From the IMG/VR virus record IMGVR_UViG_3300031600_000041, positions 1 through 20,692 of that record: DNA of 20,692 bases, one strand, 5' to 3'. The notes under the pieces were generated by a model. The model was not told the DNA's origin. It searched no databases and saw only the letters and a list, made by a program, of their open reading frames with translations. Position numbers and translations under genes: made by a program. Source of the DNA: a virus. How positions within the stretch are numbered: position 1 is the stretch's first letter; each line of letters opens with the position of its first letter. Positions 12,615 through 20,692 of the stretch are shown here, one piece after another.

Positions 12615-14681
12615 TCAGTCCCTCATAAAGTTTGGTGTGTAGACCCGGCGTTTGCGCCGTGGCGTTGTCGGTGTCCCGGCCGTCGGCGTGGCAGGCGTTG
12701 TGGGTTCGGACGGCGTGTCCGTTTGCCGCGCCGGTCGGGTTTCTACACCGGCCTGTTCTTCAAGCCTGCGCCACGTCGCCTCGTCCCAGCGATCCACCCC
12801 AAGGATCCATGTCGCCGCGCGGGCATAGACCCGGCAATCCAGCGCCTCGTTGCGCTCGCGCATCTTCTGCCATTCGGGATGGGCATAGCCGCGCTTGTTG
12901 CGCACGGTGACCAGCTGCTCTGCCACCAGCTGCTTCAGCCATTCCGTGTCGATCCAGTCGGGCAGATGGACGGTGCCCGGCGCGTCACAGACGCCCAGCG
13001 CGCGATCCTCGTCCGAGGGGCGCTCGAGCCGCAGGAAGCGATAGGTCTCTGTCTTGAATGTGGCGGTGGCGATCGACCACAGCCGTGCGCCGCGGCGCAA
13101 ACGCTTGCCGCCGATGGTGGCGTCGACAAAGGTCGGGCCAGACACTGGCGTGGCGCGATTGAAGCCTTCCAGCCCCTTGATTGGCGAGACCTGCTCGAAG
13201 CCCTGCGCCCGCGCCCATGCGTAAACCGCGGCGGCTTCATAGCCGGTGTCGATCGCCAGTTTGGCAATCACCATCACAGCGCCGTTGGCATGGGTCCAGG
13301 TGCGGCCCAGCAAGGCGGTCAGCTTGTCCCAGCAGTCCGGATCGTCGGGACCGCCCGCGATGACGATGTGATCGATCAGCCAGCTTTCCAGCCCGCGTCC
13401 CCAGGCCCAAACATCGACCTCGATCCGGTCCTTCTGCACATCCACGCCCGCGGTCAGGAACAGCCCGCCTTCCGGAATCTGCGCCCCGAAGGTTTCGCGG
13501 CGTTCCGCCAGCCGCTGCCATTCCGGCGCATCGCCCGACTCAACCCATGTCTCGCCCAGCAGGGTGTTGCGCGCCGCGCGCAGCATCTCTTCCGAGCCCT
13601 GCGCCGCCAGCCAGTCCCGGGCGATCTGCGCCCAGCTTTTCCAGCCCAGCGGCGAATAGAGTGCCGAGAGGTGGAAGCCGATGGAATGCGGATCGGCGGA
13701 CACCGCCGTTGCCCGCCATTCGCCACGCTCCAGCATTTGCGTCTTGTGATGCTCGGCAATGGGCTTCTCACAACCTTCGCAGTGGTATGCCGCCGTGTCG
13801 GGCCGCCCCTTGTCCCAGCGCAGCCTTTCAAACTGCAGCCACTGCATCGCCCCGCAATGTGGACAGGGCACGAAATACCGCCGCTGGTCGCTCGCTTCGA
13901 ACTCGCGTTCAATCCGGCTCAACCCCCGGATGGTTGGCGTCGAGACCATGAACACCTTGCGCCGGTGCGAGAACGTGGTCGTCCGCGCTTCGGCCAGCGT
14001 GACCGGATCACCTTCCTCGTCGGCGGAAGCCGGATAGGCGTCGACCTCATCGAGAAAGATGTAGCGCGCGGGCATCGACCGCAGGCCTGTGGCCGAGTTC
14101 GCACCAGTCAGCACCAGGATCCCGCCGGGGAATTCCTTGGACAGCATCGAGTTGCCCGCATCGCGCGACCGCGCCGGGTTCACCCGTTCCCGAAGTGCCG
14201 GGCTGTCAGCAATTAGAGGGTCCAGCCGCCCGCGCGACGACCGCTTGGCCATTTCCACCGTCGGCAGCACCGCCAGCATCGGTCCCGGCGCGTGGTGGAT
14301 CACGAAGCCGATCCAGTTGTTGCCCGCCTCGGTGGCGCCAACCTGCGCGGCCTTCATGAAGCTGATCCGCTGCGCCGGGTGGCGCGGCGACAACGCATCC
14401 ATGATCTCGCGCAAGTAAGGCGTGCGCGCGGTTCGGTACTGGCCCGGTTCTGCCGAAGCGCGCGACGACAGTTTGCGGTGCTGATCTGCCCATTCCGAAA
14501 CCGTCAGGTCCGGATCAGGACGCATCCCGCGACGCCAGGACCGCAGGATGTCCTCGGCCCCGTCAAACCCGAGATCAAGCCCGTCTGTCAGCTGATCATC
14601 GGTCAGATCGCTGGTTGTCGTGTTGTCGCTATCCGAGGCTGACCCGGAGATCGGCGAGGGCGTCGAGTTGCGCTCTGACAT
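12615..14681 (-). CDS. Terminase large subunit, GpA family
   Basis: This 688-residue protein is a lambda GpA-type packaging motor. The ATPase domain has FMKAAQVGATEAGNN (108-122, Walker A-like segment), Walker B IFLDEVD (208-214) and coupling motif STPT (247-250). A zinc-ribbon-like insert has Cys pairs at 273/276 and 301/304. The nuclease domain begins near LTAGVDVQKDRIEVDVWAWG (409-428), whose Asp residues are expected metal ligands. The N-terminal ~45 residues are Ser/Thr/Asp-rich and disordered; the Pro/Thr-rich C-terminus ends in RRKRRVYTPNFMRD. Its first 53 bases overlap the small terminase gene in another frame. GpA-type enzymes cut cos ends in lambda. Confidence 0.96.
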   Translation of the reverse strand: MSERNSTPSPISGSASDSDNTTTSDLTDDQLTDGLDLGFDGAEDILRSWRRGMRPDPDLTVSEWADQHRKLSSRASAEPGQYRTARTPYLREIMDALSPRHPAQRISFMKAAQVGATEAGNNWIGFVIHHAPGPMLAVLPTVEMAKRSSRGRLDPLIADSPALRERVNPARSRDAGNSMLSKEFPGGILVLTGANSATGLRSMPARYIFLDEVDAYPASADEEGDPVTLAEARTTTFSHRRKVFMVSTPTIRGLSRIEREFEASDQRRYFVPCPHCGAMQWLQFERLRWDKGRPDTAAYHCEGCEKPIAEHHKTQMLERGEWRATAVSADPHSIGFHLSALYSPLGWKSWAQIARDWLAAQGSEEMLRAARNTLLGETWVESGDAPEWQRLAERRETFGAQIPEGGLFLTAGVDVQKDRIEVDVWAWGRGLESWLIDHIVIAGGPDDPDCWDKLTALLGRTWTHANGAVMVIAKLAIDTGYEAAAVYAWARAQGFEQVSPIKGLEGFNRATPVSGPTFVDATIGGKRLRRGARLWSIATATFKTETYRFLRLERPSDEDRALGVCDAPGTVHLPDWIDTEWLKQLVAEQLVTVRNKRGYAHPEWQKMRERNEALDCRVYARAATWILGVDRWDEATWRRLEEQAGVETRPARQTDTPSEPTTPATPTAGTPTTPRRKRRVYTPNFMRD

Positions 14682-15183
14682 GGGTTTCCAGCACCCTCTG
14701 CAGGATCGCGGCCTCGATCATCACCGGCTCGCCGGATTTCTCCGGATTGCCCGATTGTTTTTCCACCTCTGCGGCCACGTCCGCCGCCATCAGCGCCGCC
14801 ACTCTGCTGGGCCAGGTCACCCAGACGTCGCGTTCCTGTCGCGCCAAGCGAAACACCAGCGTTTCCGCCCGGGCCCGATCGACCAGCGTGCCCTTCTTCT
14901 TCTGGATCGCCAGCTGACGTTCCTGCGCCTGATAGACGGTCAGTGCGGTGCGGGCCTTCAGATAGGAGGAGCTGTCGGCCGGACCGGAAAACCCGGTGTC
15001 GCCGCCGGTGCTGCGGCGCTGCTGATCGGGATCGGTCATCTCGGCGCGTCGCACATCGGACGCGGCGGCGTTGATCGAGCCATCACCGTAGATCGCCAGT
15101 CGTCCAGCCTTGCGCGCCTTTTGAATGGCGCCGCGCGACAGGCCGGAATGGGCGGAATATTCGCGCTCGGACATACCTTCCAT
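14629..15183 (-). CDS. Terminase small subunit, Nu1-like
   Basis: This 184-residue protein starts MEGMSEREYSAHSGLSRGAI. The N-terminal ~45 residues form a winged helix-turn-helix: SEREYSAHSGLSRGAIQKAR, then KAGRLAIYGDGSINAAASD. The central part is helical and charged (TALTVYQAQERQLAIQKKKG, 85-104) and ends with RRVxxxHVRAQ-like helices. This is the layout of lambda Nu1, which binds the packaging site and recruits GpA. An ATG at residue 4 (15174) is an alternative start. It is the first gene of the leftward late operon, and its 3' end overlaps the large terminase by 53 bases. Confidence 0.87.
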   Translation of the reverse strand: MEGMSEREYSAHSGLSRGAIQKARKAGRLAIYGDGSINAAASDVRRAEMTDPDQQRRSTGGDTGFSGPADSSSYLKARTALTVYQAQERQLAIQKKKGTLVDRARAETLVFRLARQERDVWVTWPSRVAALMAADVAAEVEKQSGNPEKSGEPVMIEAAILQRVLETHVRAQLDALADLRVSLG

Positions 15184-15306: not shown

Positions 15307-15525
15307 ATGACCGCCATCACCACAATCCGCATTGACCATGATGCGCTGCCCGAACCGTTCGACCGCTCGCGCCCCGACGCCGTCGCCGCCGCCATCGAGG
15401 CCGCGCTGCGCGAAGACGGGATCACCGCCGAGGCCTCGGACGTGATCACGCACATCAAGGTCGAACTGCCTACGACGCAGCTGGCTGCTGCCAGTGCCGT
15501 GCTGGCCGACCTGCAGCTGATTTAA
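15307..15525 (+). CDS. Hypothetical small protein
   Basis: This 72-residue acidic protein starts MTAITTIRIDHDALPEPFDR. It has a helical middle (RPDAVAAAIEAALREDGI) and a C-terminal VELPTTQLAAASAVLADLQL. A GGAG 8 bases before the ATG supports the start. It is the first gene of a four-gene plus-strand cassette and is followed after 11 bases by the next gene. I do not recognise a family; composition and length suggest a small soluble protein. Confidence 0.75.
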   Translation: MTAITTIRIDHDALPEPFDRSRPDAVAAAIEAALREDGITAEASDVITHIKVELPTTQLAAASAVLADLQLI

Positions 15526-15536
15526 CGGAGGCCCCG

Positions 15537-15899
15537 ATGACCATCCCCTGCAATTGCCTGCGCGAAGGCGACACCCTCGCCGATCTGATCCGCCGCAACT
15601 GCGTCCTCGGCTTCGATCTGCGGTTCTGCCGCAGCGTCGCCGTCAGCCCCGGGGATCGCGACACCATCACTTGCGATCCGCCCGAGGCGGAGTTCGCCAC
15701 GCTTTATGCCCTGACCGATCTGGGCGAGGCCATTGCGATCCATGACGCCGACCTTTCCAGCTCCGTGGCTGACGAGGTGGCCACCGTCGCCCGTGCGCTC
15801 TTCATAGCCATCCTTAACGCCCGTTGTGATCCGCCCGATGCCGCTCAGAGGCACGAGGCTGAACAGGCTGCGCTGACCGATCATGATCGGATCGAATGA
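15537..15899 (+). CDS. Hypothetical protein
   Basis: This 120-residue protein starts MTIPCNCLREGDTLADLIRR. It continues NCVLGFDLRFCRSVAVSPGD with DTITCDPPEAEFATLYALTD, and ends in an acidic helical tail, QRHEAEQAALTDHDRIE. Five cysteines occur in the first ~50 residues (5, 7, 22, 31, 46), though they do not form an obvious zinc-finger spacing. GGAG lies 6 bases before the ATG. The 3' end contains a 14-bp perfect palindrome (15877-15890). I do not recognise a family. Confidence 0.72.
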   Translation: MTIPCNCLREGDTLADLIRRNCVLGFDLRFCRSVAVSPGDRDTITCDPPEAEFATLYALTDLGEAIAIHDADLSSSVADEVATVARALFIAILNARCDPPDAAQRHEAEQAALTDHDRIE

Positions 15900-16001
15900 T
15901 CAGAATGAAATCTTATGGCTCTGATTTGCCTACGATAATCGGCCCGGCAGAGCGATTGTGATGACACGCAAACGATGCAACTCACCCAACGGAGCCACAC
16001 C

Positions 16002-16271
16002 ATGACACGCGTCAACCCGATCACCACACCCCGCCACCAGCTGCGCGCAGAAAAGGCCCGGCTGAACAAGGAGGCCGCGCTCGCGGCTTTCATCGGCAAG
16101 AAGGCCGAAATCGACGAGATGCTCGCCCGCTTGGCACAGCTCAGCGACGACCATTTCAACAGCCACCCCGAAGAAATCAACTGGGGCGACGTCGGCACCC
16201 TTGAGCACTACGCCGGGCTGCTCAAGCGCATCACTGACAATGCGTTTGGCGAGGGCGAGCACGCAGAATAA
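16002..16271 (+). CDS. Hypothetical small helical protein
   Basis: This 89-residue protein starts MTRVNPITTPRHQLRAEKAR. The region 13-50 is strongly helical and charged and may form a short coiled coil (LRAEKARLNKEAALAAFIGK followed by KAEIDEMLARLAQLS). The C-terminal half is NSHPEEINWGDVGTLEHYAG and then LLKRITDNAFGEGEHAE. I chose the ATG at 16002, which has GGAG 8 bases upstream, over the in-frame ATG at 15975. It is the third gene of the plus cassette, and no family is recognised. Confidence 0.78.
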   Translation: MTRVNPITTPRHQLRAEKARLNKEAALAAFIGKKAEIDEMLARLAQLSDDHFNSHPEEINWGDVGTLEHYAGLLKRITDNAFGEGEHAE

Positions 16272-16293
16272 CGGAACCACGCGCCACAGAGCG

Positions 16294-16312
16294 GCCCGCC
16301 AATATGGTGGGC
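16294..16312 (+). repeat. Short hairpin between cassette genes
   Basis: GCCCGCCA-ATA-TGGTGGGC forms an 8-bp stem (one G-T pair) with a 3-base loop, in the 97-base gap between the small helical gene and the DUF3489 gene. There is no T-run after it (TTGCCCC follows), so it is not a classic terminator. It could protect the mRNA or attenuate it. Confidence 0.4.
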
Positions 16313-16368
16313 TTGCCCCGGTAGAAGGCCGCGCAATTCCGCGCCGCCCGATCAGGCCGGAGGCCCGG

Positions 16369-16929
16369 ATGCCCAAACTTACCGACACGCAAACCACAAT
16401 TCTCAATGCCGCAGCCCAGCGCGCAGACAATCTCGCGATGCCGCTGCCCAAGGGGCTGCATGGCGCTGCTGCGCAAAAGGTTGTCAGCATGATGATGATG
16501 CGCGGCTGGCTCGAGGAGGTCGATGCCGACATCCGCAAAGGCGAACCGCTCTGGCGCGAGACCGGCGATGGCCACGGCACCACGCTGATCGCGACCGAAG
16601 CAGGTCTGCTGGCCATCGGGATCGAGCCGGTCGTTGTTGGCATGGTGACCAAGCTACGCAAGGCCACGCCGGAGTCGGACCCGCAGGCGCCTGCGTCGGA
16701 TGTGCCGAAACCGGTCAACATCCGCACCGGCACCAAACAAGCGCAGATCATCGCGCTTCTGCAGCGTCCCGAAGGTGCGTCCATCACCGAGATCGCAGCG
16801 GAGACTGGCTGGATGCCTCATTCGGTGCGCGGCATGATCTCCGGGGGGCTGAAAAAGAAGCTCGGCCTGCCCGTTGCCTCTGAAAAGGTCGGTGGGAGAG
16901 GCACCGTGTACAAGCTGGACGCCGCCTGA
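16369..16929 (+). CDS. DUF3489 domain protein
   Basis: This 186-residue protein starts MPKLTDTQTTILNAAAQRAD. The C-terminal domain (about 120-186) is DUF3489: RTGTKQAQIIALLQRPEGAS, then ITEIAAETGWMPHSVRGMIS and GGLKKKLGLPVASEKVGGRG. This is a winged helix-turn-helix layout. The N-terminal half also reads like a winged-helix unit (AAAQKVVSMMMMRGWLEEVD followed by GTTLIATEAGLLAIG), so the protein may be a two-domain DNA-binding regulator. The longer open frame to 16201 overlaps the preceding gene; the ATG at 16369, with GGAG 7 bases upstream, is preferred. Such proteins are common in alphaproteobacterial mobile DNA; the function is unknown. Confidence 0.87.
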   Translation: MPKLTDTQTTILNAAAQRADNLAMPLPKGLHGAAAQKVVSMMMMRGWLEEVDADIRKGEPLWRETGDGHGTTLIATEAGLLAIGIEPVVVGMVTKLRKATPESDPQAPASDVPKPVNIRTGTKQAQIIALLQRPEGASITEIAAETGWMPHSVRGMISGGLKKKLGLPVASEKVGGRGTVYKLDAA

Positions 16930-16950: not shown

Positions 16951-17178
16951 TCACCCGCGACGTGAACGAGAACACCGGCGTTCGAACAGGCGGCGAAGAG
17001 TGTAGCTGCGCAGCAATGAGATACCCAAGAAGATCGCGCCGATGGCGAGGTTCTCGCCCACGCTCGGATGCAGCCCGAACCATGGGAACACCACGATCTG
17101 GGTTGCCAGCGCCAGCGCATAGCCCACGGCAACATTGGTGACGGCTTCAACAAAAGACATGCATCGGGACTGGGTCAT
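16951..17178 (-). CDS. DUF7220-like small membrane protein
   Basis: This 75-residue protein begins MTQSRCMSFVEAVTNVAVGY, a very characteristic phage/GI opening of the DUF7220 type. It has two membrane segments (about 9-33, including YALALATQIVVFPWFG, and 43-60, including LAIGAIFLGISLLRSY) and a basic C-terminus, RRLFERRCSRSRRG. It is the last gene of the leftward methyltransferase operon, overlapping the preceding gene as ATGA. It converges on the DUF3489 gene with a 21-base gap. Its function is unknown; two-helix phage membrane proteins can be involved in exclusion or lysis, but nothing here shows which. Confidence 0.82.
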   Translation of the reverse strand: MTQSRCMSFVEAVTNVAVGYALALATQIVVFPWFGLHPSVGENLAIGAIFLGISLLRSYTLRRLFERRCSRSRRG

Positions 17179-17636
17179 TCGGCTCCCCCCGGCGCATGCA
17201 ATTCATCGAGGATGCGGTTTGCGATCTGACCCACATTGACGACGATGCATGCGCTTTCGTCTGGTGAAATCAAGATGTCCCCAATGTTGGTGAGTTGAAC
17301 AAACTCGCTACGGCTTTCGTTTTTGAACCAATCTTCAAACCCATGAATCAACCAGACAACCCCAGTGCAGCCATCCGGCTGATCGACGCTGGCGCGCAGA
17401 TATTGCGACAGGTGTTCCTGGACATATCGAAACGCGATTGATGGCCCGAGGCCGATGTTGCGCAATTCCTGTGCCACGGCAATGGCCACCACGTCGCGCC
17501 AGCTATACCAGCGCTCCTTTCCCGACTCGGGGGTATGCTCCGGACAAAAACCGTCGCGCGATATGGCCTGGTTCAGATCATTGCGCTGGATCGGGATCGC
17601 CCGCACCAGATCGGCCAATCGCCAGCGCATGTTCAT
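17175..17636 (-). CDS. Hypothetical protein with a possible helix-turn-helix N-terminus
   Basis: This 153-residue protein starts MNMRWRLADLVRAIPIQRND. Residues ~5-80 resemble a MerR-type or similar DNA-binding unit: LADLVRAIPIQRNDLNQAIS, then a WYSWRDVVAIAVAQELRNIG helix pair and GPSIAFRYVQEHLSQYL. The C-terminal half is a predicted alpha/beta region (VVWLIHGFEDWFKNESRSEF, then SACIVVNVGQIANRILDEL). It is coupled to the methyltransferase upstream (ATGA) and to DUF7220 downstream (ATGA), so all four genes form one operon. Base composition is less GC-rich than the methyltransferases. No family is recognised with confidence, and the HTH reading is an inference. Confidence 0.75.
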   Translation of the reverse strand: MNMRWRLADLVRAIPIQRNDLNQAISRDGFCPEHTPESGKERWYSWRDVVAIAVAQELRNIGLGPSIAFRYVQEHLSQYLRASVDQPDGCTGVVWLIHGFEDWFKNESRSEFVQLTNIGDILISPDESACIVVNVGQIANRILDELHAPGGAE

Positions 17637-18997
17637 TCCGCCGTTCCTTCCAATTCATCAACGGTCACGCCCTTGCCATCGCGCCGCGCCACATCCCCTG
17701 TCGCCATCTCCCACCGCCGTACCGCGACGTCGCAATAGACCGGGTCCAGTTCCATCGCAAAGCAGCGTTGCCCGGCGCGCTCGGCGGCGACCAGCTGGGT
17801 GCCGGAGCCGCAGAACGGTTCATAGATCAGATCGTCGGGATCCGAAAACGCTGTCAGCACCGCCTCGACCAGCGCCACCGGGAACACCGCCGGATGCGAT
17901 CCGGCCGCGCCCAGCCCTCCTTTATGGCGCATGATGCGGAAAACGCTGTCGGGGATGCGGTGGCTTTGGATCGCATTGCCGGTGCCGGTCTTGGCGTGAA
18001 CGGTGCCGTCGGCTCCGCGAAGCCCACCGCCGCCGAGCGTTGTGCCCGCGTGTTTGGACGGGACGGTTTTGTGTGGTTTGCGTGAGCTGTGGTTGAAGTG
18101 GAAAATGAACTCGTGCGACGGCGCCAGGCGGCCGTTCCAGTCGCCCGGCAGGCCCGGGCCCTGATCCCACACATACCAACCAAACCGCCGCCAGCCAGAG
18201 CTGCGCATCCATTCGACCCATCCTTCCCAATAGGGCAACCATTCGCCGTCGCGGTGCACGAGGCCGAGATTGACCAGCAGCTGCGCGTCGGCTTTGAGCG
18301 GGGCCGCAGTGAAGACGCCCTGCATCAGCGCGTCCCAATCACCGACCTTTTCCTTGGCCGCGCCATAGTCGCGCTGCTGGGCGTAAGGCGGCGAGGTGAA
18401 CATCAGCGTGGCTTGCTCGCCTTGCATGAGCTTGGCCACGGCAGCAGGATCGGTCGCATCGCCACAGCACAGCCGGTGCTTGCCCAGCGCCCAGATGTCG
18501 CCCGACTTGGTGATCGGTTCTGCGGGCGGGTCTGGAATCGCATCGGCGTCGTCGTCGGAAATCGCCGGTCCGCCATCGGCGTCTGCCAACAGGGCGTCCA
18601 ATTCGTCCTCGGGGATCCCGATCAGCCCGAGGTCGAAATCCTCGGCCAGCAGCGCCTGCAACTCCTGCAACAGCAGGGCCTCGTCCCAGCCGCCCAGTTC
18701 GGTCAGTTTGTTGTCGGCGATGCGATACGCCCGGCGCTGCGCCTCGGTGAGATGGCCCAGAATAATGACCGGGGATTCCGTTAGGCCAAGTTGAGCGGCG
18801 GCCAGGATGCGGCCATGGCCAGCGATCAGCTCGCCATCAGCAGCCACCAGCACCGGCACGGTCCATCCGAACTCGGCCATGCTGGCGGCGATCTTTGACA
18901 CCTGGTCAGCGTCATGGGTCTTGGCGTTACGGGCGTAGGGCTTCAGTCGGTCCAGCGGCCAATGCTCGATCTGACCGGGCAGAAGCGGCGCGTTCAT
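17633..18997 (-). CDS. ParB-domain DNA methyltransferase, TSPPY type
   Basis: This 454-residue protein has a ParB/Srx-like N-terminal domain (about 9-125; PYARNAK at 20-26, LIAGHGR at 57-63, AYRIADNKLTEL at 90-101). An acidic Asp-rich linker follows (about 138-160), then an amino-methyltransferase domain of class beta order. Motif IV is TSPPY (201-205) and motif I is YEPFCGSGT (392-400). The Ser in SPPY is more usual in N4-cytosine enzymes, so m4C is the better guess. The ATG at 18997 overlaps the upstream paralogue as ATGA. Phage enzymes of this type modify the phage's own DNA, probably against host restriction, or affect packaging and replication. No restriction endonuclease is encoded nearby. 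Its target sequence cannot be deduced. Confidence 0.92.
   Translation of the reverse strand: MNAPLLPGQIEHWPLDRLKPYARNAKTHDADQVSKIAASMAEFGWTVPVLVAADGELIAGHGRILAAAQLGLTESPVIILGHLTEAQRRAYRIADNKLTELGGWDEALLLQELQALLAEDFDLGLIGIPEDELDALLADADGGPAISDDDADAIPDPPAEPITKSGDIWALGKHRLCCGDATDPAAVAKLMQGEQATLMFTSPPYAQQRDYGAAKEKVGDWDALMQGVFTAAPLKADAQLLVNLGLVHRDGEWLPYWEGWVEWMRSSGWRRFGWYVWDQGPGLPGDWNGRLAPSHEFIFHFNHSSRKPHKTVPSKHAGTTLGGGGLRGADGTVHAKTGTGNAIQSHRIPDSVFRIMRHKGGLGAAGSHPAVFPVALVEAVLTAFSDPDDLIYEPFCGSGTQLVAAERAGQRCFAMELDPVYCDVAVRRWEMATGDVARRDGKGVTVDELEGTAE
18593..18997 (-). repeat. Long imperfect direct repeat, copy 1 (ParB half of methyltransferase)
   Basis: The 5' ~405 bases of the downstream methyltransferase gene are a diverged direct copy of 19852-20256. 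The resemblance is visible at DNA level, for example around 18870-18945 versus 20130-20205. It could allow recombination deleting one gene to leave a chimera. Confidence 0.75.
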
Positions 18998-20256
18998 GCC
19001 GCGAGCCTCTTTGCCTTCAGGTCGGCGAAGGACTCGCCAGTTCCTTCAAGCACGGCATTGGCACCGGTGAACTGCTGCCAACGCTCAATGGCGACATCGA
19101 CGTAGGCCGGGTTCAATTCGATTCCGAAGCAGACTCGCCCGGTGGTTTCCGCCGCGATCAGCGTGGTGCCGGATCCCATGAACGGTTCAAAAACCGCTTG
19201 GCCGGGGCTGGAATTGTTCAGGATCGGGCGGCGCATGCATTCGACCGGCTTCTGGGTGCCGTGCACGGTAGCGGCATCCTGATCCTTGCCGGAAATGTGC
19301 CAGAGCGTCGTCTGTTTGCGATCCCCCGCCCAATGGCCTTTGCCGGTTTTCTTGACGGCATACCAGCAGGGTTCGTGCTGCCAGTGATAGTCGCCGCGGC
19401 TCAATACAAGCCGATCCTTGGCCCAGATGATCTGCGACCGCACGGCGAAACCGGCCGCGACGAGGCTCTCGGCCACGGTCGCAGCGTGCAGCGCACCGTG
19501 CCAGACATAGGCGACGTCGCCGGGGAACAATGCCCAAGCCTCGCGCCAGTCGGCACGATCATCGTTCAGCACCTTGCCAGTGCGTTTGGTCTTTGCCGCG
19601 CCCGCCTGATTGCGCCATGACGGGTCATATTCCACGCCATAGGGCGGATCGGTCACCATCAGGAGCGGCTTCACGTCGCCCAGCAACCGCTCGATCACAT
19701 CGGCGGACGTGCTGTCACCGCAGATCAGCCGGTGCGATCCAAGCTGCCAGAGGTCGCCCGGCACCGACACTGGCGTGACCGGCTGTTCGGGAGTGTCATC
19801 CTCGCCCTCGATGGGCCCGTCGTCGCCCAGCGCGTCCGGATCACGCAGCAGGGCATCCAGATCCTCGCCGGTGATGCCCAGCAGCGACAGGTCGAAATCC
19901 TCGGCCAGCAGCCCCGCGATCTCGTCGCGCAGCATGGCCTCGTCCCAGTCGCCCAGCTCGGTCAACTTGTTGTCGGCAATGCGGTAGGCGCGGCGTTCAG
20001 CTTCATCGAGGTGGCCGAGCCGGATCACAGGTACGTCGGTCAGCCCGAGCATCGTGGCCGCCAGCACGCGGCCGTGCCCGGCGATCAGCTCACCATCGTC
20101 GGCCACCATGCAGGGCACGGTCCAGCCGAACTTGGCCATGCTGGCCGCAATCTTGGCCACCTGGTCGTCGCCATGCATCTTGGCGTTTCGAGCGTAGGGA
20201 CGCAGCCGATCAATCGGCCACGTCTCGATCTCGCTTGGCGCGAAGACAAGGTCCAT
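18994..20256 (-). CDS. ParB-domain DNA methyltransferase, TDPPY type
   Basis: This 420-residue protein has the same architecture as its downstream neighbour: a ParB-like domain (about 9-128, with PYARNAK at 20-26 and LIAGHGR at 57-63), an acidic linker (about 138-160), then a methyltransferase domain. Motif IV is TDPPYGV (202-208), followed by HGTQKPVE (332-339) and motif I FEPFMGSGTT (356-365). DPPY points to N6-adenine methylation. The first 135 residues align without gaps to the paralogue, so the pair arose by tandem duplication with divergence of the catalytic part. The ATG at 20256 is the first start of the leftward operon, about 90 bases after a leftward terminator, so its promoter should lie between 20256 and 20342. 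Confidence 0.93.
   Translation of the reverse strand: MDLVFAPSEIETWPIDRLRPYARNAKMHGDDQVAKIAASMAKFGWTVPCMVADDGELIAGHGRVLAATMLGLTDVPVIRLGHLDEAERRAYRIADNKLTELGDWDEAMLRDEIAGLLAEDFDLSLLGITGEDLDALLRDPDALGDDGPIEGEDDTPEQPVTPVSVPGDLWQLGSHRLICGDSTSADVIERLLGDVKPLLMVTDPPYGVEYDPSWRNQAGAAKTKRTGKVLNDDRADWREAWALFPGDVAYVWHGALHAATVAESLVAAGFAVRSQIIWAKDRLVLSRGDYHWQHEPCWYAVKKTGKGHWAGDRKQTTLWHISGKDQDAATVHGTQKPVECMRRPILNNSSPGQAVFEPFMGSGTTLIAAETTGRVCFGIELNPAYVDVAIERWQQFTGANAVLEGTGESFADLKAKRLAA
19852..20256 (-). repeat. Long imperfect direct repeat, copy 2 (ParB half of methyltransferase)
   Basis: This is the partner of the repeat at 18593-18997, covering the ParB-like domain of the upstream methyltransferase. The encoded residues 1-135 are collinear with copy 1, without gaps. 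Confidence 0.75.
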
Positions 20257-20341
20257 GGGTGGTTCTCATTTTGGGCAGGGCGGGCAAGCCGATTTGCGCG
20301 GCCAAGACCGGCAGCGGCAGAATCGAGATCCGCGATGTGGA

Positions 20342-20380
20342 GAAAAACGAAAGCGCCCGAGAGGGATTTCCTCCGGGCGC
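20342..20380 (-). terminator. Rho-independent terminator, leftward
   Basis: The arms GCGCCCG (20353-20359) and CGGGCGC (20374-20380) pair perfectly. An inner GAGG/CCTC stem (20361-20364 with 20370-20373) extends the helix past a single bulge to 11 bp, with a 5-base loop. On the minus strand the hairpin is followed by TTTCGTTTTTCT, the T-rich tail of an intrinsic terminator. On the plus strand the trailing bases are only moderately T-rich. It would stop leftward transcripts entering from the right, about 90 bases before the methyltransferase ATG, or act as an attenuator. Confidence 0.75.
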
Positions 20381-20440
20381 TATTCTTCGATGATCAATAG
20401 GTAGGTCAAGGGGGGCAGCATTGTCAAACGAAAAACGGAA

Positions 20441-20636
20441 GTGGATTCAATGCCTTCGCGGAGGGGTGGCTTCCGAAGCCTGGCTTCTGGTCCAGGTGGC
20501 TTCCCTGGATTCCACGGGGTGGATTCTTGACAGAAACAGTAAAATCCACTCTGAGAGCCGGGCGGACCAACGTAAGGCGCTGTAATATTGTGACTTTATT
20601 TCGCGCTTTCACCGAGGTGGCTTCCAAGTGGATTCC
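20441..20636 (+). repeat. Cluster of iterated 9-mers GTGG(C/A)TTCC
   Basis: Copies start at 20441 (GTGGATTCA), 20466 (GTGGCTTCC), 20480 (CTGGCTTCT), 20496 (GTGGCTTCC), 20505 (CTGGATTCC), 20519 (GTGGATTCT), 20617 (GTGGCTTCC) and 20628 (GTGGATTCC), with an inverted ATCCAC at 20544. Spacing is irregular (9-25 bases, then a 98-base gap). Seven-base arms TTCACCG (20608-20614) and CGGTGAA (20638-20644) flank the last two copies. The arrangement resembles iterons or multiple binding sites for one protein. Confidence 0.7.
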
Positions 20637-20692
20637 CCGGTGAAGAAGCCAGTCGCTAGCGAAACGCCGCGCTGCGCCCCCCCGTATACGTT

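Follow-up and report, generated by a model that had tools for sequence, protein, structure and literature searches.

In phage lambda, binding of the small terminase subunit (TerS) to cosB anchors the large subunit (TerL) on cosN, which leads to a staggered cut and the start of packaging, and cosQ acts in termination (PMC9026076). The lambda cosB runs from R3 (bp 50-65) through I1 with an IHF site and the inverted R2 to R1 (PMC9026076, PMC4669245). Lambda, 21 and N15 represent different packaging-specificity groups (PMC4669245), and in the literature consulted the recognition of sites by small terminases rests on these three phages. Besides, cos sites that operate with Rpp proteins have been reported for PICIs (PMC6739421, PMC9026076).

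Here, we analyzed a complete virus record of 20692 bases, referred to as the window. The initial annotation had noticed a cluster of short repeats near its right end and listed a packaging site among several candidates. This candidate was supported, as the array is tied to a cosN-like block and its word follows the TerS type. With a probability of roughly 0.9, judged from sequence, the array represents cosB within a cos site of the lambda type, and TerS is predicted to read its multiple copies of one word. The lambda-type cos itself is a known kind of element, and the phages carrying it here are mostly from Rhodobacterales where the host is known. For a multi-copy array of this kind and its covariation with the TerS helix, our searches of the published open-access literature listed no description.

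Layout of the region

The identified genes of the window are encoded on the minus strand and run from right to left. The parts of the region are as follows.

20672..20683, minus strand: predicted cosN cohesive end GGGGGGGCGCAG, 12 nt, from the conserved block and the alignment across the lambda end junction
20654..20664, minus strand: TTTCGCTAGCG, conserved in relatives, between cosN and the array at the place of lambda I2
20441-20636: array segment with eight same-strand TGGMTTC cores and one degenerate inverted copy
20628..20636, minus strand: site R-a GGAATCCAC, bp 48-56 from the cohesive end, at about the place of lambda R3, reading toward the late genes
20617..20625, minus strand: site R-b GGAAGCCAC, bp 59-67
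20550..20616, minus strand: spacer, where many relatives have an IHF consensus (+98)
20541..20549, plus strand: inverted degenerate site, R2-like, reading GTGGATTTT on the minus strand with two mismatches
20519..20527, minus strand: forward site AGAATCCAC
20505..20513, minus strand: forward site GGAATCCAG
20496..20504, minus strand: forward site GGAAGCCAC
20480..20488, minus strand: partial forward site AGAAGCCAG, 7-base core at 20481
20466..20474, minus strand: forward site GGAAGCCAC
20441..20449, minus strand: forward site TGAATCCAC
20352..20409, minus strand: promoter-like hexamers at 20409-20382, then a GC hairpin at 20352-20381, ahead of the late genes and outside cos
18994..20256, minus strand: ParB-like/N6-N4 DNA methyltransferase, first gene after cos
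17633-18997, minus strand: second ParB-like/N6-N4 methyltransferase
14629..15183, minus strand: terminase small subunit TerS (phrog_57), recognition helix SRGAIQKARKAGR
12615..14681, minus strand: terminase large subunit of the GpA type (PF05876, PF20454)

Also identified were a lambda-family portal, an S49 protease, capsid protein E and tail genes. Small plus-strand genes (15307-16929; one DUF3489, one phrog_14596) located between the methyltransferases and TerS oppose the late-gene direction, and proteins resembling their products by eye were seen near cos in L221, L227 and L254.

The cosN-like block (20654-20683) lies just beyond the segment delimited by the initial annotation, at a fixed distance from the array. 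Its nick positions were taken from the alignment to lambda and would fall between 20683/20684 and between 20671/20672, and the GpA-type TerL is proposed as the enzyme that nicks there. The window ends 9 bases past the predicted nick and therefore the remainder of the cos site is not visible in it. We considered contig ends close to cosN (the window, L095) as evidence for virion ends and rejected this, as other contigs end 28-142 bases away.

The repeat array

The cluster at 20441-20636 is real and far above chance in shuffle controls. It had been described as eight copies of a 9-mer, a count that holds for the 7-base core TGGMTTC (plus-strand starts 20442, 20467, 20481, 20497, 20506, 20520, 20618 and 20629); GTGGMTTC occurs six times and the exact 9-mer GTGGMTTCC only four times. 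In the whole window GTGGMTTCC was found seven times, four of them inside the array segment, versus a mean of 0.39 and a maximum of 3 in 100 dinucleotide shuffles. Within 20257-20692 the core was present nine times on both strands (mean 0.09, maximum 2 in 5000 plain base shuffles), with the ninth core falling outside 20441-20636.

An 88-aa frame on the minus strand stays open between the contig end and 20424. However, coding is unlikely because its 67-aa form matched no PHROG family and just 68 of 1146 frames of 240 bases were open at the array stretch across 191 relatives. This is in line with the description of a segment lacking a convincing gene; coding in relatives would have spoken against it, and there the stretch is mostly closed. 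When phage records were searched with the intergenic DNA, the only match covered 32-42 bases at the hairpin and came from two cyanophage records; with the whole window as query, megablast returned no match.

The window does contain the reported inverted repeat flanking the last two copies (20608-20617 / 20635-20644), but relatives do not keep it: among 193 of them the arm nearer cosN, TTCACCG, was found in 164 and the other arm, CGGTGAA, in none. Such a repeat around two copies could indicate a recombination or attachment site. However, the absence of one arm (0/193) and the position of the array upstream of the terminase genes in a set of 36 TerS loci with a strict cos pattern leave this reading next to no chance.

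The array stands just upstream of the promoter-like site, which would also suit an operator array for a regulator of late-gene transcription. In support of this, the promoter-like site and the conserved hairpin follow the array; 20352-20409 holds one promoter-like site and no terminator by the prediction rule used, and the hairpin CGCCCG..CGGGCG is kept in 113/191 relatives. Against it, the spacing of the array is fixed relative to cosN, its word follows TerS, and the TTGAC..CTTGAC box occurs in only 83/191 relatives. Moreover, a relative of the small window gene 17175-17636, picked by eye as the regulator candidate, was detected in just 18 of the 136 array loci whose downstream sequence reaches at least 2.5 kb, and in 12 of the 89 reaching at least 6 kb. 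We consider an operator function very unlikely. As a separate observation, promoter-like hexamers with a conserved GC hairpin directly after them might perhaps represent an antitermination-controlled late promoter.

Conservation and geometry in related phages

The first search was carried out with the methyltransferase protein instead of DNA, and the best 80 viral loci of a larger number were used. Among these, GAAKCCAC or its complement was present within 1.5 kb in 58 of the 65 loci having at least 300 bases upstream, the seven others being L016, L041, L066, L067, L070, L072 and L081. An alignment of the methyltransferase upstream regions (65 loci and the window) revealed a stronger outer block consisting of a C-run, TGGTTCCTCCC, a variable stretch, and then CGTATRCGGGGGGGCGCAGCGC and TTTCGCTAGCG. 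Scans with this cosQ-cosN block covered 55 viral loci, then at least 120 genome loci and at least 120 viral loci. According to the record titles, 114 among the 120 genome loci listed belong to Rhodobacterales. GGTTCCT (cosQ) was found at most 45 bases upstream of cosN in 54 of the 55 viral loci, and the exception is cut by the contig end.

The array recurs with fixed position and spacing in at least 193 other loci. For its density we used 233 loci that are distinct in the 100 bases around the block and were chosen by the cosQ-cosN pattern, of which the array is no part. The density of GGAAKCCA was 20.5 per kb across the 260 bases that follow the block, compared with 0.02 per kb across the 260 bases preceding it and 0.05 per kb over all other sequence of these loci (1.92 Mb), so the repeat is rare outside the array. 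An equal frequency across the host genome would have spoken against the cluster, and the sequence of these loci gives no sign of it. At least three copies were present in 136/156 loci having at least 2.5 kb downstream; the 20 others include other-word phages as well as L169 and L189, which we rejected as true cos loci since they look like chance pattern matches.

With position 0 set at the first G of the cohesive end, 187 of 194 loci (193 relatives plus the window) have a core at +48 and 185 have one at +59. In 188/194 an inverted TGGMTT lies between +120 and +150, with further forward cores beyond it, and on average 7.1 cores (range 3 to 10) fall within +40 to +260. The strict IHF consensus occurs in the spacer of 71/194 loci, 68 of them at +98, versus 0.2 expected from base shuffles; four other tested segments had 0, 0, 0 and 1. 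The window spacer (20550-20616) contains no IHF consensus, even allowing one mismatch.

These positions also bear on the idea of replication-origin iterons, which had been among the first candidates. Short direct repeats in a gene-free segment would suit an origin. However, the geometry is fixed to a lambda-like cosN, with the inverted member and the IHF position as in cosB, and the only neighbour gene in view encodes a methyltransferase, the other flank lying beyond the contig end. No replication or recombination gene was found among the window proteins given to family searches, which comprised part of the genes. We rate an origin as highly improbable.

Some features of the arrays were noted in passing. 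In the spacers of GTTTCC/TACC arrays (L299, L280 and similar) a GC-rich inverted repeat GGCGCG..CGCGCC was seen by eye, at the place that the IHF consensus occupies in many GAAKCC arrays. Furthermore, the choice of T or G in GAAKCCA depended on the site in 191 relatives, with mostly G at about +167 to +203 (121/24, 102/25, 101/8) and mostly T at about +145 to +158 (185/113). As the T form contains a GANTC site, the sites could, speculatively, be distinguished by methylation.

Comparison with known cos sites

As in lambda, forward sites are followed by the IHF position, the inverted site and again forward sites. A cosQ-like GGTTCCT/GGGTCCT precedes the GC-rich cosN by about 27 bases, compared with a hand-counted 30 in lambda. 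Further similarities are TTTCGCTA on the far side of cosN, first sites near bp 48-67, a GpA-type TerL and a winged-helix TerS. Likewise, GpA, portal, S49 protease and capsid E of the window are of the lambda type. In contrast to the three sites in lambda, there are about seven sites on average with another core word, and where the window has TTTCGCTAGCG the lambda I2 segment reads TTTTCGCTA. TerS starts at bp 191 in lambda and at bp 89 in N15, whereas here its gene is found 2.8-9.2 kb from cos behind other genes (about 5 kb in the window). The window also differs from lambda in lacking the IHF consensus, and its contig ends before cosQ.

In a direct alignment the cosQ-cosN region of a relative was collinear with the lambda end junction at a score of 37, compared to shuffle maxima of 36 and 31, and this score was reached by 0/1000 shuffles in each of two controls. 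The short piece available from the window scored 35, a value reached by 1/1000 query and 0/1000 lambda shuffles. A profile of 24 other-word cos sites had the cos junction as its top match in lambda (E 5.9) and N15 (E 0.019). With the own-type profile the lambda junction was second (E 6) and the N15 junction was absent from the first four, and a combined profile placed the junctions second in both lambda (E 12) and N15 (E 3.3). The other-word profile matched phage AmM-1 (E 1.4), presumably by chance, with a better score than lambda. AmM-1, an Aurantimonas phage related through its methyltransferase, gave no clear cos match. The resemblance to the lambda and N15 cos is weak though position-exact, and it is the exact position that carries the weight.

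As in the lambda, 21 and N15 groups, cosQ and cosN are conserved while the R words differ and are matched to differing TerS recognition helices. Here, however, the hosts are mostly alphaproteobacterial where known, whole multi-site arrays switch their word, and several such switches are found on one TerS tree. The PICI sites similarly retain cosQ and cosN with a different cosB, but in our set it is the TerS of the phage itself that varies.

Agreement between array word and TerS

Other words with a similar cosQ-cosN were GTTTCCA (L299) and GTACCA/CTACCA (L272, L280, L298), and the recognition helices of TerS on the other-word contigs differ. In L265 the array is GTTTCC, as expected from the TerS of the contig, an expectation that was recorded only afterwards. 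A search based on TerS yielded 116 loci, of which 108 and additionally L358 were examined; eight partial TerS matches (L372, L421, L429, L431, L471, L472, L474, L475) were left out. The strict cosQN pattern was present in 36 TerS loci, with agreement of word and helix in all of them. Further scans added more agreeing loci and at first showed no array in L442, L455, L462 and L473, although L442 later showed a GTTTCC array.

We also examined 76 distinct TerS with at least 2.5 kb upstream for the array word. It fits the helix in all 52 scorable loci: SRGxxQKA with GAAKCCA (29), SHTAV(R/G)KA with GTTTCCA (13) and SHV(S/A)V(L/M)(R/K)A with TACCA (10). Most of the 24 loci with no array call have upstream sequence shorter than many cos-TerS distances, and L389, L406, L414, L438 and L455 gave no call despite 5-6 kb upstream. 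The identical scan downstream of TerS called an array in 0/76. T/V at position 17 and R/G versus L/M at position 20 separate GTTTCC from GTTACC/GTACC, and SRGAIQKA goes with GAAKCC.

A tree of 38 TerS sequences, built without the DNA-binding domain and labelled by helix type, placed the SRG group in one clade, and the other two helix types interleave. For 18 rows both the word, read from the DNA, and the helix were available, and both change together in three of three independent, well-supported pairs; with only three independent switches a sign test cannot reach significance (p 0.25). The best tree requires four changes each for word and helix. One example is provided by the tree neighbours L454 and L458, which are identical at 112/136 positions outside the DNA-binding domain. 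L454 combines the helix SHTAVRKAVLA with GTTTCC, and L458 combines SHVAVMKAVRA with GTTACC. By alignment, helix residue 20 is R in L454 and M in L458, and this residue is one of two described as important for the discrimination between lambda and 21 (PMC4669245). Taken as a packaging code, these data make it fairly probable that the entire multi-copy cosB switches its word once a few residues in the TerS recognition helix are altered.

The TerS of the window is just 23% identical to that of lambda. Its AlphaFold model has a mean pLDDT of 73.9 (82-86 in the first four of ten blocks), and its N-terminus folds into two short helices, then a turn containing a strand, then a third helix. Foldseek with this model returned nothing at E 0.001 or better, and the TerS profile found no relative among PDB sequences. 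In a structural realignment of the N-terminus, 6hn7_B from the Rpp-TerS paper (Z 7.2) and 7lw0_A (Z 7.1, rmsd 1.5) were on top; an excisionase and 7lwr_A were also among the top ranks, and gpNu1 (1j9i) had a Z of 4.6. MerR and excisionase domains score nearly as high as lambda-type TerS chains and all Z values are below 8, so the fold match supports, without proving, that the modelled N-terminus resembles the lambda-type winged helix of gpNu1.

Methyltransferases next to the array

The neighbouring genes had suggested that the array is a parS-like binding site for the ParB-domain methyltransferases. The N-termini of the window methyltransferases match ParB-like PHROGs (phrog_620, E 6e-48), but these proteins have no Pfam ParB domain match. 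Proximity speaks for the idea, since the methyltransferase match starts at most 700 bases from cosN in 122/156 loci having at least 2.5 kb downstream, with at least three array copies in 110 of these 122. However, at least three copies are also kept in 15/18 loci with the methyltransferase beyond 700 bases and in 11/16 loci without a methyltransferase match, one of which (L254) retains a 101-aa piece like the second methyltransferase. On contig 2843091766_000001 no array is present in the 6 kb before the methyltransferase (L081), and cos with its array lies 6.2 kb upstream (L103). In the GTACC-type phages a different protein follows the array, which we take, from a motif seen by eye, to be a C5-type methyltransferase. 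Accordingly, the array is independent of the methyltransferase gene. A ParB array is very unlikely, as the repeats stay with cosN when the methyltransferase is distant or has no match, and their word follows TerS. We take the methyltransferase at 18994..20256 as cargo and not as the reader of the array.

Solitary cos copies

Cos with the array was also observed in bacterial contigs beside apparent host genes (L221, L227, L231, L254, L259). Some of these copies are accompanied by TerS fragments and are apparent prophage remnants keeping cos. We inspected ten solitary cos copies and left out an eleventh, L224. The same large helicase gene was found in six of the ten loci. The protein (DEAD and UvrD, up to 1.7 kaa; L243:1706-6589, L249, L198, L210, L219, L259, L081/L103) is about 94-96% identical between six loci and has PADLOC matches to the DpdF, PsyrT and GajB models. 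Its gene ends about 260 bases from cosN on the opposite strand and is a candidate for defence cargo beside cos. We considered whether solitary cos copies belong to satellites and rejected this, as a 46-kb viral contig (L081/L103) has the helicase gene between cos and the methyltransferase and other solitary loci show TerS remnants. The gene order and the remnants are more simply explained by decayed prophages or by prophages with other cargo.

Packaging model and implications

For the cosB reading we propose the following mechanism. TerS would dock on the repeated words via its N-terminal winged helix, the first two sites standing at roughly 48 and 59 bp as measured from the cohesive end, the inverted site near +133 and the forward sites after it. 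A bend between the site groups could bring them together. TerS on the array would then place the GpA-type large subunit on cosN, and this subunit would make a cut staggered by about 12 bases in the GC-rich block and begin to fill the head. As a guess, the additional sites may increase TerS loading locally or take over from IHF bending in arrays that lack the IHF site. We infer TerS binding, the nick positions, the bend, the order of events and, by analogy, the steps of packaging in the window phage.

The at least 193 arrays of one word besides that of the window, together with at least two other words, provide a large natural data set on DNA recognition by small terminases. The interval between cos and TerS appears as a place where other genes collect, such as the methyltransferases and the large two-helicase protein. 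If the packaging code is true, TerS would allow prediction of the cosB word, or conversely the array would allow prediction of the TerS type. Related phages would then fall into packaging groups with poor packaging of one another's DNA. For many Rhodobacterales phages and prophages, the cos reading yields predictions of the virion ends and of the packaging group.
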